This document shows, piece after piece, positions 2-5,988 of a stretch of DNA of 64,000 bases. The notes under the pieces are model-generated. The model searched no databases, was not told the DNA's origin, and was given only the letters and a program-made list of their open reading frames with translations. Numbering within the stretch: the stretch's first letter is position 1; every line of letters begins with the position of its first letter. The stretch is taken from contig NZ_CP015848.1 of the NCBI RefSeq assembly GCF_002105535.1, positions 1,240,907-1,304,906 of the forward strand. The letters are read 5' to 3'. The position numbers and the translations under genes were made by a program. This stretch comes from Magnetospirillum sp. ME-1. Its GTDB lineage: Bacteria; Pseudomonadota; Alphaproteobacteria; Rhodospirillales; Magnetospirillaceae.

Positions 2-757
2 TGCGTGACCAACATGCTGCTGCATGGTGTCGAGGATGCCAGCTTCGTTCGTCACGACAACACGCTGGCGCGGCCCTACATCAGTTGGGAACAGAAGGAC
101 CGCGTCGATATCGTGCTGACCAATCCGCCGTTCGGCGGCAGGGAAGAAGACGGTATCGAATCAAACTTCCCCCAACACTTCCGTACCAGGGAAACGGCAG
201 ACCTATTCCTCGCCTTGATCATTCGCCTGCTCAAGCCTAGCGGGCGTGCCGCCGTAGTTCTGCCCGACGGATCGCTGTTCGGCGAGGGCGTCAAGACGCG
301 GCTGAAGGAGCACCTGATGGAAGAGTGCAACCTCCACACCATCGTGCGGCTGCCCAATTCGGTGTTCCGGCCATATGCTTCCATCGGAACCAATCTGCTA
401 TTCTTCGAGAAGGGCGAGCCGACCAAGGATATCTGGTTCTACGAGCACCAGTTGCCCGAGGGCCAGAAAGCCTATTCGATGACCAAGCCTATCCGGTTTG
501 AACATCTGCAAGGCTGCATTGACTGGTGGGGCGGTGCCACGCGCCAAGGCCGCGAGGAGACGCCACGGGCTTGGAAGGTCTCGGCCGAGGAGGTGAAGGC
601 CCGTGGCTATAACCTGGACATCAAGAACCCGCACACGGTGGCCGACGACCACGGCGATCCGGAAACCCTGCTCGCTGACCTGAACGCCGCTGAGGCTAAT
701 GCCGCCAGCTTGCGAGACCAATTGAAGGCGATCCTGGCCGAGGCGCTGGCACGATGA
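2..757 (+). CDS. hsdM: Type I restriction-modification DNA methyltransferase subunit HsdM, C-terminal part
   Basis: This is the C-terminal half of the N6-adenine methyltransferase subunit of a type I restriction-modification system; the gene begins before the window. The reading frame is open from the first bases. The catalytic motif IV, NPPFGG, lies about 40 residues into the visible part, where it binds the target adenine and SAM-linked chemistry takes place. It is followed by the helical C-terminal region (LLKPSGRAAVVLPDGSLF and onward) typical of HsdM. About 250 residues are visible, against roughly 500 for a full HsdM. Its stop overlaps the hsdS start by four bases (ATGA), so the two subunits are translationally coupled. 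HsdR is not in the window and could lie upstream. Confidence 0.93.
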   Translation, partial: CVTNMLLHGVEDASFVRHDNTLARPYISWEQKDRVDIVLTNPPFGGREEDGIESNFPQHFRTRETADLFLALIIRLLKPSGRAAVVLPDGSLFGEGVKTRLKEHLMEECNLHTIVRLPNSVFRPYASIGTNLLFFEKGEPTKDIWFYEHQLPEGQKAYSMTKPIRFEHLQGCIDWWGGATRQGREETPRAWKVSAEEVKARGYNLDIKNPHTVADDHGDPETLLADLNAAEANAASLRDQLKAILAEALAR

Positions 758-2475
758 ACGCCGAAAGCCTGCTCTCCCACTACCACCGCATCGCCGACGC
801 CCCCGATGCGGTGGCCCGGCTGAGGAAGTTTATCCTCGACCTCGCGGTGCGCGGCAAGTTGGTGCAGCAGGACCCGAGCGACGAGCCAGCGTCTAACCTG
901 CTGAAGCGGATCACCGAGGAGAAGGCGCGGCTGGTGAAGGCGGGGGAGATCAAGGATAAGCCTTCGCTTCCTCCCGTCACAGAATCTGAGGTGCTGTTCT
1001 CGATCCCTTCGAAATGGAGTTGGGTTCGGCTTTCCAACATTGTCGATTTCTCTGCTGGACGCACCCCTTCACGCAATGACACGTCGTTCTGGAACAATGG
1101 CGATCATGCCTGGGTGTGTATAGCTGATATGAAGGATGGCCAAGTTTTGACTGCTACGAAGGAAACGGTCAGCGACAAGGCGCGACACCTAGTTTTCGGT
1201 TCTGAACCGGAAACGCCAGGTGCGATAATCATGAGCTTCAAGCTAACTATCGGGAAAATCGCACGACTTGGTATTCCCGCATTCCACAATGAAGCGATAA
1301 TTTCAATCCGTCCGCATATTACAGATCTCGACCCATATCTGTTCATGATCCTTCCGCAGTTTGCCCGCCAAGGAGAAACCAAGGGCGCGATTAAGGGCGC
1401 AACGCTCAATCGCGATTCTATCTCGAATATCTTGATACCGCTTCCGCCCCTCGCCGAACAAAGCCGCATCGTCGCCAAGGTCGATGAGCTGATGGTCCTC
1501 TGTGACAGCCTGGAAGCCGCACGAGCGGAACGAGAGGCCACCCGTGACCGGCTAACGGCGGCGAGCCTCGCCCGCCTCAACACGCCCGATCCCGAGACCT
1601 TCCAGGACGATACCCGCTTCGCACTCGATGCCCTACCGGCACTCACCACACGCCCCGACCAGATCAAGCAACTGCGCCAGACGATCCTGAACCTCGCCGT
1701 GCGCGGTAAGCTGGTGCCGCAGGACTCGAACGACGAGCCCGCGTCGGAACTGCTGAAGCGGATCGCCAAGGAGCGCGTCGAACTGGTCAAGAAAAAGGAA
1801 ATCCGACGAGAGGACCCGCTTGATCCTATTCAACCGACTGAGATGCCGTTTGATGTTCCTGCGACTTGGATTTGGTCGCGAATCGGCGAAGCCGTTCTTT
1901 TCACGCAATATGGGACATCTCAGAAATCGAACCCTTCAGAGAAAGGCGTGCCAGTCCTCACAATGGGGAATATCCAAGAGGGGCTGGTGATCTGGAGCAA
2001 CGAGAAGCGAATCCCCGAAACCTCCGAGGATTTGCCCGCTCTGTATCTTCGGAAATTCGACCTGCTATACAATCGCACAAACAGTGCTGAGCTTGTTGGT
2101 AAGACCGGTATTTATCTTGGCGACGATAGCATCAGGACGTTTGCTTCGTATCTAATTCGGCTCCGCCCTTCGCTTCTATCCAGCAACCCCCGGTTCTTGA
2201 ACATGGCGATGAATACTTCTGAGTTCCGCGAAACGCAGATTGTCCCCCTCATCAAGAAGCAGACTGGGCAGGCGAACGTGAACGGCACGGCGCTTAAGAA
2301 CATGCTCATTCCTCTCCCACCCTTCGCCGAGCAGCACCGCATCGTCGCCAAGGTCGATGAACTGATGGCCCTGTGCGACCAGTTGGAAGCAAGCCTCAAC
2401 ACCGCCGACAACACCCGCCGCCGCCTGCTGGAAGCCCTGCTGGCCGAGGCGCTGGCTCCGGTGGAGGCCGCGTGA
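754..2475 (+). CDS. hsdS: Type I restriction-modification specificity subunit HsdS
   Basis: The 573-aa specificity subunit chooses the DNA sequence recognised by the HsdM/HsdS (and HsdR) complex. It shows the classic two-fold layout. A segment LAVRGKLVQQDPSDEPAS near residue 30 is repeated as LAVRGKLVPQDSNDEPAS near residue 315. Each is followed by a target-recognition domain (about residues 85-230 and 370-515) and a conserved spacer helix (PPLAEQSRIVAKVDELM and PPFAEQHRIVAKVDELM). The recognition domains are more AT-rich than the conserved blocks, as is usual for swapped HsdS domains. The start overlaps hsdM by 4 bases, and the stop shares one base with the next ATG. Confidence 0.95.
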   Translation: MNAESLLSHYHRIADAPDAVARLRKFILDLAVRGKLVQQDPSDEPASNLLKRITEEKARLVKAGEIKDKPSLPPVTESEVLFSIPSKWSWVRLSNIVDFSAGRTPSRNDTSFWNNGDHAWVCIADMKDGQVLTATKETVSDKARHLVFGSEPETPGAIIMSFKLTIGKIARLGIPAFHNEAIISIRPHITDLDPYLFMILPQFARQGETKGAIKGATLNRDSISNILIPLPPLAEQSRIVAKVDELMVLCDSLEAARAEREATRDRLTAASLARLNTPDPETFQDDTRFALDALPALTTRPDQIKQLRQTILNLAVRGKLVPQDSNDEPASELLKRIAKERVELVKKKEIRREDPLDPIQPTEMPFDVPATWIWSRIGEAVLFTQYGTSQKSNPSEKGVPVLTMGNIQEGLVIWSNEKRIPETSEDLPALYLRKFDLLYNRTNSAELVGKTGIYLGDDSIRTFASYLIRLRPSLLSSNPRFLNMAMNTSEFRETQIVPLIKKQTGQANVNGTALKNMLIPLPPFAEQHRIVAKVDELMALCDQLEASLNTADNTRRRLLEALLAEALAPVEAA

Positions 2476-3155
2476 TGGTCGAAGAGCCAGAACCGCCCGA
2501 TCTTGACCCAGAGAAAGTGGCCTATTGGTATTTCCGGCTCAACGGATTCCTTCAGATCGAGAACTTCATCCTGCACGACGCTCGTGGGAACGGACAAAGG
2601 ACAGACGCAGACCTTTTGGCAGTCCGTTTTCCGCACCGCGCCGAATTCATCTTCGATCAGGAATTGCCGATGAAGGATGACGAGGAGGCGCTGCACCTCA
2701 GCAAGGCCCACATCGACATCGTAATCGCCGAAATCACCGTCAATAGACCATGCAAGCTCAATGGCCCCTGGACCAAGCCAGAGCGCCAGAACATGCACCG
2801 GGTTCTGGCTGCGGTAGGCTGCGTGCCAACCGACCAGATCGATGGCGTGGCCGCCGACCTCTATGCTACCGGATGCTACGCTGGACCAAACAACCGTGTC
2901 CGGCTGGTGTCCATCGGCGGCAGCCGCAATCCGGACTTAGACGCTCGCTTCCCGTCGGTCACTCAGTTGACCTGGCTGGATGTGTTGACCTTCATCTGGC
3001 AACGGTTTCAGAAATACCGAAAGCAGAAGACCCAGGTTGATCAATGGGACCAATGCGGCAAGGAACTGCTATGGCTTGCGACGGGCAGACCTGACCAACG
3101 TCGGTTCATTGACGAAGCCCTTGCCCGCATGGGCGCAAGGAACATGATCCAATGA
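2475..3155 (+). CDS. Uncharacterised protein coupled to a type I R-M operon (possible restriction-like nuclease fold)
   Basis: A 226-aa protein that I cannot assign to a named family. The start is the ATG that shares its first base with the hsdS stop; the frame stays open further upstream, but inside hsdS. The segment after residue 20 reads YWYFRLNGFLQIENFILH, then RTDADLLAVRFPHR and, about 45 residues later, HIDIVIAEITVNRPCKLNG. An acidic strand followed by an E-x-(K/T)-like strand resembles the PD-(D/E)XK nuclease core, but the expected lysine is replaced by threonine (AEIT), with a lysine only further on. A nuclease role is therefore inference. It overlaps the PLD gene by 4 bases, so hsdM, hsdS, this gene and the PLD gene form one coupled operon. 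Confidence 0.8.
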   Translation: MVEEPEPPDLDPEKVAYWYFRLNGFLQIENFILHDARGNGQRTDADLLAVRFPHRAEFIFDQELPMKDDEEALHLSKAHIDIVIAEITVNRPCKLNGPWTKPERQNMHRVLAAVGCVPTDQIDGVAADLYATGCYAGPNNRVRLVSIGGSRNPDLDARFPSVTQLTWLDVLTFIWQRFQKYRKQKTQVDQWDQCGKELLWLATGRPDQRRFIDEALARMGARNMIQ

Positions 3156-4189
3156 TTGGCGATTTATACGGCAAGATGAAGAAGGCTGGTGCCGATCTAG
3201 TCGAGCAGGCCAAGGAACATGCGCCAGCCTTCAGGGAGGCTATTGCCGATGGCGCATCAGCCGTCCGCGACAAGGCCGAAGAGATGGCTCCCAAGATCAA
3301 GGATGCGATAAAGACTGGAGCCAGCTCAGCTCAATCTGCCGTCGAACACATGGCTCAGGCAGCGCCAGAGGTCGCCCAGAAAATTCGGGATGAAGCACCT
3401 CATCTGGCTCTGGGCGTTAAGAACGCCTACGACGAAACCAGCGCACCAATCAAAGGAGCAGTCGGTGGCGCGGGCATTGGAGCTGCCGTCGGCTACGTGG
3501 TAGCTGGAGTTGGCGGAGTGGGGATCGCTGCCCTGGGCGGTGCGATAGGCATTCCAGTACTGGCCGTAACGGCTGTTGCCGGTGCTGCCATCGGCCACGC
3601 CGTCGCCGCCCAACTCGACATTAAGCGCTTGAGCAACATTATCGAGGGCATGGAAGACGACCGCTATCAGCGGGTCATCGCCGCCACGAAACGAAGCGGC
3701 GGCTTCACAGTGATTAACGACAGTGAACACCGATCGGAACTGATGGAAGCAATTGATAGTGCAAAAGAAATGCTTTGCATAAGCTCCGCATTTATCAGTT
3801 CATATGCCATCGACCAGCGAGTTCGTGAGTCCATCCGACGCGCCATCAAACGAGGCGTTAACGTCTACATCGAATATGGCTGCAAGCTTGGCGTAAACGA
3901 CCCACCGCCAGCGAGACACGTCAAGCGGGCCATGGATCACCTGGAAGAAATTAAAGCCTGGGCAGCCAACGAGAACCTAACTGGCACGATCAACATCCGT
4001 GAGCGGCCCACCCACGTTAAAGAGATCATCGTTGATAGGACGTACCTCATACTCGGTAGCTTCAATTGGCTATCCAACAGGACCGTCAAGAATGCCGAGA
4101 AGTCGGCGAAGATCGCCGATGCAGACCTCTGCGTACTTGAGCAGCAGGAATTCAAAAAGTCCGCCGAATCCGCAGCAAGCAACGCCTAA
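3152..4189 (+). CDS. Membrane-anchored PLD-like (HKD) domain protein in the R-M operon
   Basis: A 345-aa protein with three parts. Residues 1-100 are an amphipathic, Ala/Lys/Glu-rich helical repeat region. Residues about 101-154 are glycine- and alanine-rich and hydrophobic, with GxxxG-like spacing, and probably insert in a membrane. Residues about 175-335 are a phospholipase D-type domain with one exact HKD motif: H288, K290, D295, then GSFNW from G302. PLD-family enzymes with one HKD motif work as dimers, and this family includes nucleases such as Nuc and BfiI as well as lipases. Its place as the last gene of a coupled R-M operon favours a defence nuclease or effector, which is inference. 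The 3' end overlaps the convergent 4186-4584 gene by 4 bases. Confidence 0.85.
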   Translation: MIGDLYGKMKKAGADLVEQAKEHAPAFREAIADGASAVRDKAEEMAPKIKDAIKTGASSAQSAVEHMAQAAPEVAQKIRDEAPHLALGVKNAYDETSAPIKGAVGGAGIGAAVGYVVAGVGGVGIAALGGAIGIPVLAVTAVAGAAIGHAVAAQLDIKRLSNIIEGMEDDRYQRVIAATKRSGGFTVINDSEHRSELMEAIDSAKEMLCISSAFISSYAIDQRVRESIRRAIKRGVNVYIEYGCKLGVNDPPPARHVKRAMDHLEEIKAWAANENLTGTINIRERPTHVKEIIVDRTYLILGSFNWLSNRTVKNAEKSAKIADADLCVLEQQEFKKSAESAASNA

Positions 4190-4584
4190 TCGCCAAGATC
4201 GATGGTCACGGTGAAATTCCCCGTATCGATCACCGCCCGCTGATGGCCTTTCCCATATCCCGCCCGATCCAAGATCGTGCAGGCGGCATGGAACCGGATG
4301 TACTCGCTGTCGGCATTCGCCATTAGGCCACGCAGCACCGCCAGGGCATTCACCGCATCATCATTGAACGCCTCGGCCATTCGCCGCCGCATGTACTCCT
4401 GGACATGGGGAAGTCGTAGCGTCTTCGATCCAACAACCCGTGCAGACTCACCGCCTGAACCCGCTGAATATCCAGCACTCAGCGCAGCATCCTTGACACT
4501 GCATCCAGTCATCACAAGCGTATCAACCAGAGCGACCTGCTTATCGGTGAGCTTGTCTATAACAGCAACATTTGTCGAAGCCAT
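4186..4584 (-). CDS. Phage terminase small subunit-like HTH protein
   Basis: A 132-aa protein that opens with LTDKQVALVDTLVMTGCSVKDAALSAGYS, followed by VVGSKTLRLPHVQEYMRRRM. This is the helix-turn-helix layout of small terminase subunits, which bind phage DNA at packaging start sites (KQ..FV..Y...G.n...AA..AGYS, then a block ending in a conserved VQ.Y). No large terminase, portal or capsid gene lies nearby, so it is probably a remnant or has been co-opted as a DNA-binding protein. It converges on the PLD gene and is divergent from the low-confidence ORF at 4680. Confidence 0.7.
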   Translation of the reverse strand: MASTNVAVIDKLTDKQVALVDTLVMTGCSVKDAALSAGYSAGSGGESARVVGSKTLRLPHVQEYMRRRMAEAFNDDAVNALAVLRGLMANADSEYIRFHAACTILDRAGYGKGHQRAVIDTGNFTVTIDLGD

Positions 4585-5885: not shown

Positions 5886-5912
5886 GTAAGCTCTTGATTT
5901 CCAAGAGGAAAA

Positions 5913-5988
5913 TGGTGCTGCCGAATGGAATCGAACCATCGACCTTACCCTTACCAAGGGTATGCTCTACCGACTGAGCTACGGCAGC
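5913..5988 (-). tRNA. tRNA-Thr(GGT), CCA encoded
   Basis: A 76-nt cloverleaf on the minus strand. The acceptor stem GCTGCCG pairs with CGGCAGC. The D-arm contains AGCTCAGTCGGTAGAGC. The anticodon stem ACCCT/AGGGT encloses the loop TTGGTAA, giving anticodon GGT (threonine, ACC/ACU codons). The T-loop is GGTTCGATTCC, and the 3' CCA is encoded. Its 3' end faces the accessory block at 1-5.8 kb, which is the usual geometry for an island inserted at a tRNA gene. Confidence 0.97.

Follow-up and report, generated by a model that had tools for sequence, protein, structure and literature searches.

In a 64,000-nt window of the genome of Magnetospirillum sp. ME-1 (contig NZ_CP015848.1, positions 1,240,907 to 1,304,906), two genes follow hsdS, the specificity gene of a type I restriction-modification (R-M) operon. 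The first encodes a protein of 226 amino acids (aa), here called P226, and the second a protein of the phospholipase D (PLD) superfamily with an HKD motif. The reading that we favour, and hold to be fairly probable from the sequences compared, is that P226 and the PLD protein are co-translated add-ons placed in a swappable defence slot of a complete EcoEI-like type I R-M operon. In the clade of close hsd operons, the slot behind hsdS indeed appears often to hold interchangeable, translationally coupled genes of defence type. Coordinates refer to the window unless prefixed; L009 is the stretch of the same genome that precedes the window start, and the other L numbers are those of the loci compared (Table 1).

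P226 and PLD genes end a complete hsdRMS operon

The genes hsdM, hsdS, P226 and PLD overlap end to start by 4, 1 and 4 bases, and the coordinates confirm what an earlier note on this DNA had reported in this respect. An alternative in-frame GTG start of P226 at 2472 would give a 4-base overlap with hsdS. The same note stated that HsdR is not seen downstream, which is true but misleading, as hsdR lies directly upstream of hsdM, outside the window, with a gap of 3 bases between the 2 genes. Its product contains the ResIII, EcoEI_R_C and HSDR_N domains together with the motifs ExK, ATGTGKT and DECH. Because hsdR with its motifs sits upstream and HsdM has the NPPF motif, the operon looks complete, and the presence of hsdR, hsdM and hsdS with catalytic motifs places it among the EcoEI/EcoAI-like type I R-M systems. 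An R-M operon devoid of HsdR is ruled out by the hsdR gene found just upstream of the window.

By its length alone, the P226 frame is modest evidence of a real gene, considering that the longest stop-free run in 500 Markov shuffles had a median of 136, a 95th percentile of 215 and a maximum of 376. P226 can be told from a chance frame because 7 intact relatives exist, at 38-57% identity, and the PLD gene because its domain matches Pfam PLDc_2 at 3.3e-10 (40.3 bits, above the cut-off of 27).

Operons with a close HsdM often carry coupled genes behind hsdS

We scored the position behind hsdS in related operons, counting as a coupled tail any gene of at least 100 aa whose overlap with the hsdS stop is 1 or 4 bases. 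From 41 EcoEI-like loci given, 35 were scored: L052, L054, L055 and L070 were dropped as having no full hsdS downstream and L071 and L074 as having no full HsdM. L046, whose contig ends just past hsdM, and L002 and L006, with a distant HsdM, were not entered. Plasmid records with a close HsdM numbered 33, and the neighbourhoods of 10 were read. Results showed an overlapping tail in 9 of the 12 operons with an HsdM at least 70% identical, against 2 of the 23 below 70% (Fisher p 1.4e-4). When the three operons with P226 were left out, the tail was still found in 6 of 9 close operons (p 0.002).

The content of the slot differs from one operon to the next. In our operon the slot is filled by P226 and the PLD gene and in L003 by P226 alone; in L004, P226 is followed by a gene for a 496-aa HNH-like protein. 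A 489-aa HNH-like protein is found in L031; for this pair of 496 and 489 aa the HNH likeness was recognised by eye only, and no Pfam domain was found. L047 has a 247-aa protein of no known family, a weakly TIR/NDT-like protein and a protein of the family that we label IDYSGA-type, as its members read GIDYSGA near the start. The tail of L049 consists of PDC-M04A (DUF3800) and PDC-M04B, that of L050 of Fic, HNH and IDYSGA-type genes, that of L056 of a metallo-beta-lactamase (MBL), PDC-S18 and an IDYSGA-type gene, and that of L057 of DUF6998; a NucS-like protein also counts among the tail contents. The PDC families are the guilt-by-embedding candidates of PADLOC, and the matches of these sister tails are strong for PDC-M04A/B (1e-87, 2e-59) and PDC-S18 (4e-144), and weaker for PDC-S04 (the Fic gene, 1e-21). 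Sequence matches support that the slot behind hsdS in close operons often holds genes similar to known or candidate defence families.

The IDYSGA-type family has no Pfam domain above cut-off and provides the last gene of the tails of L047, L050 and L056. In L005 it is fused to P226, and this copy is 63% identical to the one of L047. In L003, L004, L031, L049 and L056, extra genes were also found inside the hsd core, separating hsdM from hsdR or from hsdS. A second variable slot, between hsdR and hsdM, was observed in L031, L056, L003 and L049; it holds an FRG-domain protein and its relative, and 189-aa and 176-aa proteins of no known family. Matches to PDC families include PDC-S02 for the insert of L031 (2e-45) and, more weakly, PDC-S15 for the FRG gene (3e-7). 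In L055, one of the loci left unscored, a helicase gene overlaps the end of the shortened frame at the hsdS position.

Several points weigh against such a slot. Under a looser rule, by which the next gene starts at most 12 bases from the hsdS stop, the difference is smaller, with 9 of 12 close operons and 6 of 23 distant ones (p 0.01), or 6 of 9 close operons once the three with P226 are left out (p 0.05). The 70% line was set post hoc, at the gap between 74.6 and 62.1% identity. The p-values ignore shared ancestry, related loci not being independent and several of the 23 distant ones being close kin, and P226 itself had led to 2 of the 12 close operons. Moreover, a coupled tail is absent from 3 of these 12, namely L051, L053 and L059. 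Because the looser rule narrows the contrast, it is the overlap, and not the mere presence of a next gene, that distinguishes the close clade.

P226 is a rare family found in hsd operons and in helicase or methylase loci

P226 matched no family in Pfam, NCBIfam, PADLOC or PHROGs. A scan of a collection of 84,980 species with a single P226 query, which can reach no further than close relatives, yielded 7 of them, and the plasmid set added one (Aquincola). Seven of these 8 relatives are intact, so that the family counts 8 intact members with the window copy; the eighth, in L008, is split over two frames. Within the genome sets, which overlap, P226 was found in its own genome only (1 of 99 relatives, 1 of 385 genomes of the class, 1 of 398 of the phylum), and none was found in phage records or viral contigs. 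In Bradyrhizobium, the genus of L003, 5 of 146 genomes gave a match: 2 have an intact copy, one the split copy of L008, and 2 fragments only (G856 and G941, at L026 and L027). P226 therefore looks like a rare accessory gene, often decaying.

The earlier note had proposed a comparison of homologous operons, and the outcome differs for the 2 genes: P226 directly follows hsdS with an overlap in 4 of the 8 intact copies (window, L003, L004 and L006), whereas the sets scanned for the PLD gene have it at this locus alone. The hsdM frame of L006 starts with a match to IS66 transposase, for which reason this operon may be broken; its hsdS is barely above the Pfam cut-off. The remaining 4 intact copies lie near methylase, helicase or nuclease genes. 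In L002, P226 comes after a gene for a YgjP metallopeptidase, and the locus also has an N6_Mtase gene; in L005, where it is the fused form, the locus has DpdE-like helicase, DrmMI-like methylase and UzuA genes; the L007 copy, on a short contig, follows a helicase fragment, and the L010 copy a YhcG-type nuclease gene.

These contexts bear on a different explanation, in which HsdM and HsdS, with or without HsdR, recruit P226 as adaptor and the PLD protein as membrane effector, all forming one machine. The strict co-translation of the chained genes would agree with it, as would the 4-base overlap with hsdS that P226 keeps in L003, L004 and L006 and its presence in helicase/methylase loci, fitting an adaptor of such complexes. 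On the contrary, no PLD relative was found around the other P226 genes (L002-L008 and L010) at E values up to 1, nor in the seven genomes of L002-L008 (a scan with no positive control of its own, the query matching itself in other scans). In addition, P226 is alone in L003 and has an HNH-like partner in L004, 9 of the 12 close operons do without P226, and HsdR is present and looks intact. We consider such a machine quite unlikely, and the combined module of modification subunits with a membrane effector, as the earlier note had imagined it, is not supported, considering that the operon has its own HsdR and that no PLD relative was found in the stretches around the other P226 genes. A conserved four-gene module was rejected as well, given that none of the other P226 genes found is accompanied by a PLD relative and that the tails of close operons differ. 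What stands of the proposed defence add-on is the co-translation of the tail genes and the defence-type slot of the relatives, but not a fixed combination.

It is similarly improbable, in our opinion, that the hsdS tail works as a plug-in port, with HsdRMS as sensor platform, exchangeable effectors and P226 as adaptor, the catalytically dead P226 of the window being paired with a membrane-held HKD nuclease. In that view, the IDYSGA-type protein with which P226 is fused in L005 would be an adaptor too.

The window copy of P226 lacks the lysine of a nuclease-like motif

PD-(D/E)XK nucleases have an alpha-beta core with a D...E-x-K motif. The P226 alignment shows a TDADLLAVRFP stretch, then IAEVKTNQPCTLNGPW, a pattern resembling that of such nucleases. 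All 8 members have D44 and D46; E86 and K88 are each found in 7 of 8, and the complete E-x-K in 6 of 8: L006 is without E86, and the window P226 has T88 in place of the catalytic lysine (EIT against EVK) and in this respect departs from PD-(D/E)XK nucleases. AlphaFold2, run on 7 sequences with the L005 and L007 rows of the alignment (A2) trimmed to their P226 part, gave a best model with a predicted local distance difference test (pLDDT) of 75.9 and a predicted template modelling score (pTM) of 0.79; the five models ranged from 59.0 to 75.9 in pLDDT. The order of elements is helix 12-22, strands 40-42, 47-51 and 80-87 (which holds E86), helix 101-114 and strand 140-148, with pLDDT below 50 at residues 32-42 and 59-62. 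Among the best 50 of 103 Foldseek rows against the PDB, 13 are PD-(D/E)XK nucleases by title, a count made with no null; they correspond to 8 distinct proteins (NucS, FokI, McrBC, EcoO109I, MspJI, RecU, Shedu and a cap-snatching endonuclease). In the viral structure library BFVD, 4 of the best 50 of 171 rows are named PD-(D/E)XK, again with no null.

Motif and predicted fold together make a PD-(D/E)XK fold likely for P226, at a level short of statistical significance. The searches themselves speak against it: nothing significant came from Foldseek against the PDB (best E 0.25) or from the structural search against BFVD (best E 0.045), with TM-scores below 0.4 in both, and four NucS/YhcG-type proteins gave no match in a profile comparison (E 0.63). 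A sequence search of the PDB likewise returned nothing significant for P226.

The window copy is the most diverged of the seven close P226 members, catalytic lysine included. It deviates at 18 of the 108 columns that are invariant in the six other close members, each of which deviates at 1-5 of 91-95 such columns. Together with the lost lysine and the split or fragmentary copies of three Bradyrhizobium genomes, this would suit a scenario of decaying passengers, where P226 is a degenerating leftover nuclease, the PLD gene a recently landed orphan, and neither matters to defence. Against it, no stop interrupts either frame and overlaps couple them, the conserved D44, D46, E57, E86, C93, G97 and W99 are retained in P226, and the HKD motif of the PLD protein is intact; we regard the scenario as unlikely. 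Within the reading of co-translated add-ons, the P226 of the window probably does not work as a nuclease in the usual way; it may be a DNA-binding or adaptor part.

The PLD protein resembles defence-type HKD proteins

The last gene of the operon belongs to the HKD/PLD superfamily, with its PLDc_2 match and a single intact HxKx4D motif (H288/K290/D295) followed by GSFNW. Its product comprises an amphipathic N-terminus (1-95), a Gly-rich hydrophobic segment (100-155) and the PLD domain (197-336). The earlier note had called it a membrane-anchored HKD protein; the HKD part of this description is borne out. The membrane anchor is a putative one, read from the hydropathy of residues 100-155, and the poor structure predicted without an alignment (pLDDT 44) weakens the case for it and for the fold of the N-terminus. 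Weak matches of the N-terminus to LeoBC, ZorA and apolipoprotein were read as an effect of composition. No significant match was found by sequence search of the PDB.

The small nucleases have a single HKD motif. The membrane-like segment beside the HKD domain could suggest that the protein acts on lipids, as an abortive effector that damages membranes with a phospholipase site. The best matches are instead to defence-type HKD proteins of PADLOC (MkoB 1e-21, MkoC 9e-17, DrmC 1.4e-7), the nuclease NucT (5e-4) scores slightly better than cardiolipin synthase models (0.01-0.07), and the single motif also argues against lipids as substrate, which we find very unlikely.

No full-length relative of the PLD protein was found in 385 genomes of the class (3 partial matches), in 89 relatives (2 partial), in plasmids (5 partial), in phage records or in viral contigs; the 84,980-species collection was scanned for P226 only. 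Two of the five plasmid matches were viewed. Both are cyanobacterial, one standing by a kinase gene, not far from a helicase gene, and the other by an AAA-domain gene, a layout that we read as Mokosh-like.

Under the favoured reading of an add-on, the PLD protein would be anchored in the inner membrane through its Gly-rich hydrophobic segment, would pair with itself to complete the HKD active site, and would cut nucleic acid as a second defence layer. Made together with the R-M enzyme, it would perhaps come into play against phages that evade restriction or block it. The protein probably works as an add-on of its own and not as a subunit of the R-M complex; for both proteins, we infer the mode of action from sequence.

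Comparison with known systems

Accessory genes at R-M loci have precedents, such as the rlo/mlo genes at the hsd loci of Campylobacter jejuni (PMC5183652, PMC4619093), PrrC in EcoprrI with the hypothesis of R-M-coupled toxins (PMC12707154), and DarTG inside a type I R-M operon (PMC12255303); defence candidates have also been collected by guilt-by-embedding (PMC12988326). The likeness is in the extra defence-type genes co-located with hsd genes, and the difference in their position between or within the hsd genes and in their families. P226 and the PLD gene belong with such R-M-linked accessory genes, coupled behind hsdS and not between hsd genes. A guardian of the PrrC type is activated upon inhibition of its R-M enzyme; no PrrC/RloC-type domain was recognised in the Pfam scan of the 2 proteins. 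The 2 genes differ from the sister tails in that no PADLOC model matches P226 and no PDC model the PLD gene.

The nearest relative of the PLD domain is the nuclease domain of MkoB, from the Mokosh system (MkoB/MkoC PLD nuclease; PMC11291487). Only residues 174-325 align, to residues 291-433 of the 610 of MkoB, and the N-terminus is another, membrane-like module. Mokosh combines the helicase MkoA with MkoB, or consists of MkoC; membership was rejected, as no Mokosh helicase partner was found among the scanned genes of the element described below, where the only helicase types are hsdR and an AAA_25 gene. DISARM, with which the earlier note had compared the PLD protein, shares the presence of an HKD/PLD protein (DrmC) beside a methylase system. 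The comparison fails as an assignment: DrmC matches weakly, at 1.3e-7, and far below its NCBIfam cut-off (31.4 bits against 133), and no drmA or drmB was found among the scanned genes of the element.

The operon lies in a putative integrative element

The R-M operon is part of a stretch of 12,891 bases (about 12.9 kb) that runs from one to the other of two direct repeats of 48 bp, identical copies of the end of tRNA-Thr. It looks like an integrative element inserted in tRNA-Thr, with the R-M operon as cargo. The scan of its genes, from which smaller frames were left out, identified a tyrosine integrase, a 208-aa gene, an AAA_25 gene with PHROG matches of primase/helicase type, hsdRMS, P226, the PLD gene and a terminase small subunit-like gene. 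Seven measured genes have a GC content of 0.56-0.60, compared with 0.66 in the window from 6001 to 64000. With its integrase, its replication-type AAA_25 gene and its lone terminase small subunit gene, the element is possibly satellite-like, that is, a phage-satellite-like carrier of the R-M operon. A 2052-aa protein encoded against its left end has matches to AAA_16 and TPR that are too weak to pass the Pfam cut-offs, and may be a large STAND/NLR-like protein.

Table 1. Features of the operon, of the element and of the loci compared
Feature	Coordinates	Strand	Length	Remarks
hsdM, 3' part	2..757	+		Cut by window start; Pfam N6_Mtase; NPPF and DPSCGTG motifs
hsdM, whole gene	L009:18207-19664		485 aa	Pfam N6_Mtase and HsdM_N
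hsdR	L009:15735-18203		822 aa	Upstream of hsdM
hsdS	754..2475	+	573 aa	Pfam Methylase_S; PADLOC Specificity_I 1.7e-138
P226	2475..3155	+	226 aa	PD-(D/E)XK-like tail gene
HKD/PLD gene	3152..4189	+	345 aa	Pfam PLDc_2, PADLOC MkoB, hydropathy, motif
Terminase small subunit-like gene	4186..4584	-		Convergent with PLD gene, inside element; Pfam Terminase_2 1.3e-11; PHROG 51
Right attachment repeat	5912..5959	-	48 bp	3' part of tRNA-Thr (5913-5988)
Left repeat	L009:11976-12023		48 bp	Beside tyrosine integrase
Gene at left end of element	L009:5498-11656	-	2052 aa	Abuts the element
Split P226	L008:9929-10638			Two frames
hsdR-hsdM slot	L031:6149-6997			
hsdR-hsdM slot	L056:7138-8004			
hsdR-hsdM slot	L003:6205-6774			
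hsdR-hsdM slot	L049:4619-5149			
IDYSGA-type copy	L005:9203-10690			Fused to P226
IDYSGA-type copy	L047:4344-5138			
IDYSGA-type copy	L050:10180-11049			
IDYSGA-type copy	L056:13274-14338			

Significance of the slot

R-M loci with accessory defence genes are already known. Our literature searches, in which no description of P226 or of an hsdS-PLD operon was recognised, leave as new, within the literature searched, the P226 family, its pairing with a PLD protein, and the overlap slot. In one EcoEI-like clade, the gene position that immediately follows hsdS would be a specific place to find defence genes of no known family, and P226 would be a newly recognised nuclease-like family common to type I R-M operons and helicase/methylase loci. 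As the hsd tails vary and the core stays alike, these operons are suited to asking whether R-M enzymes control such genes or only share an operon with them.

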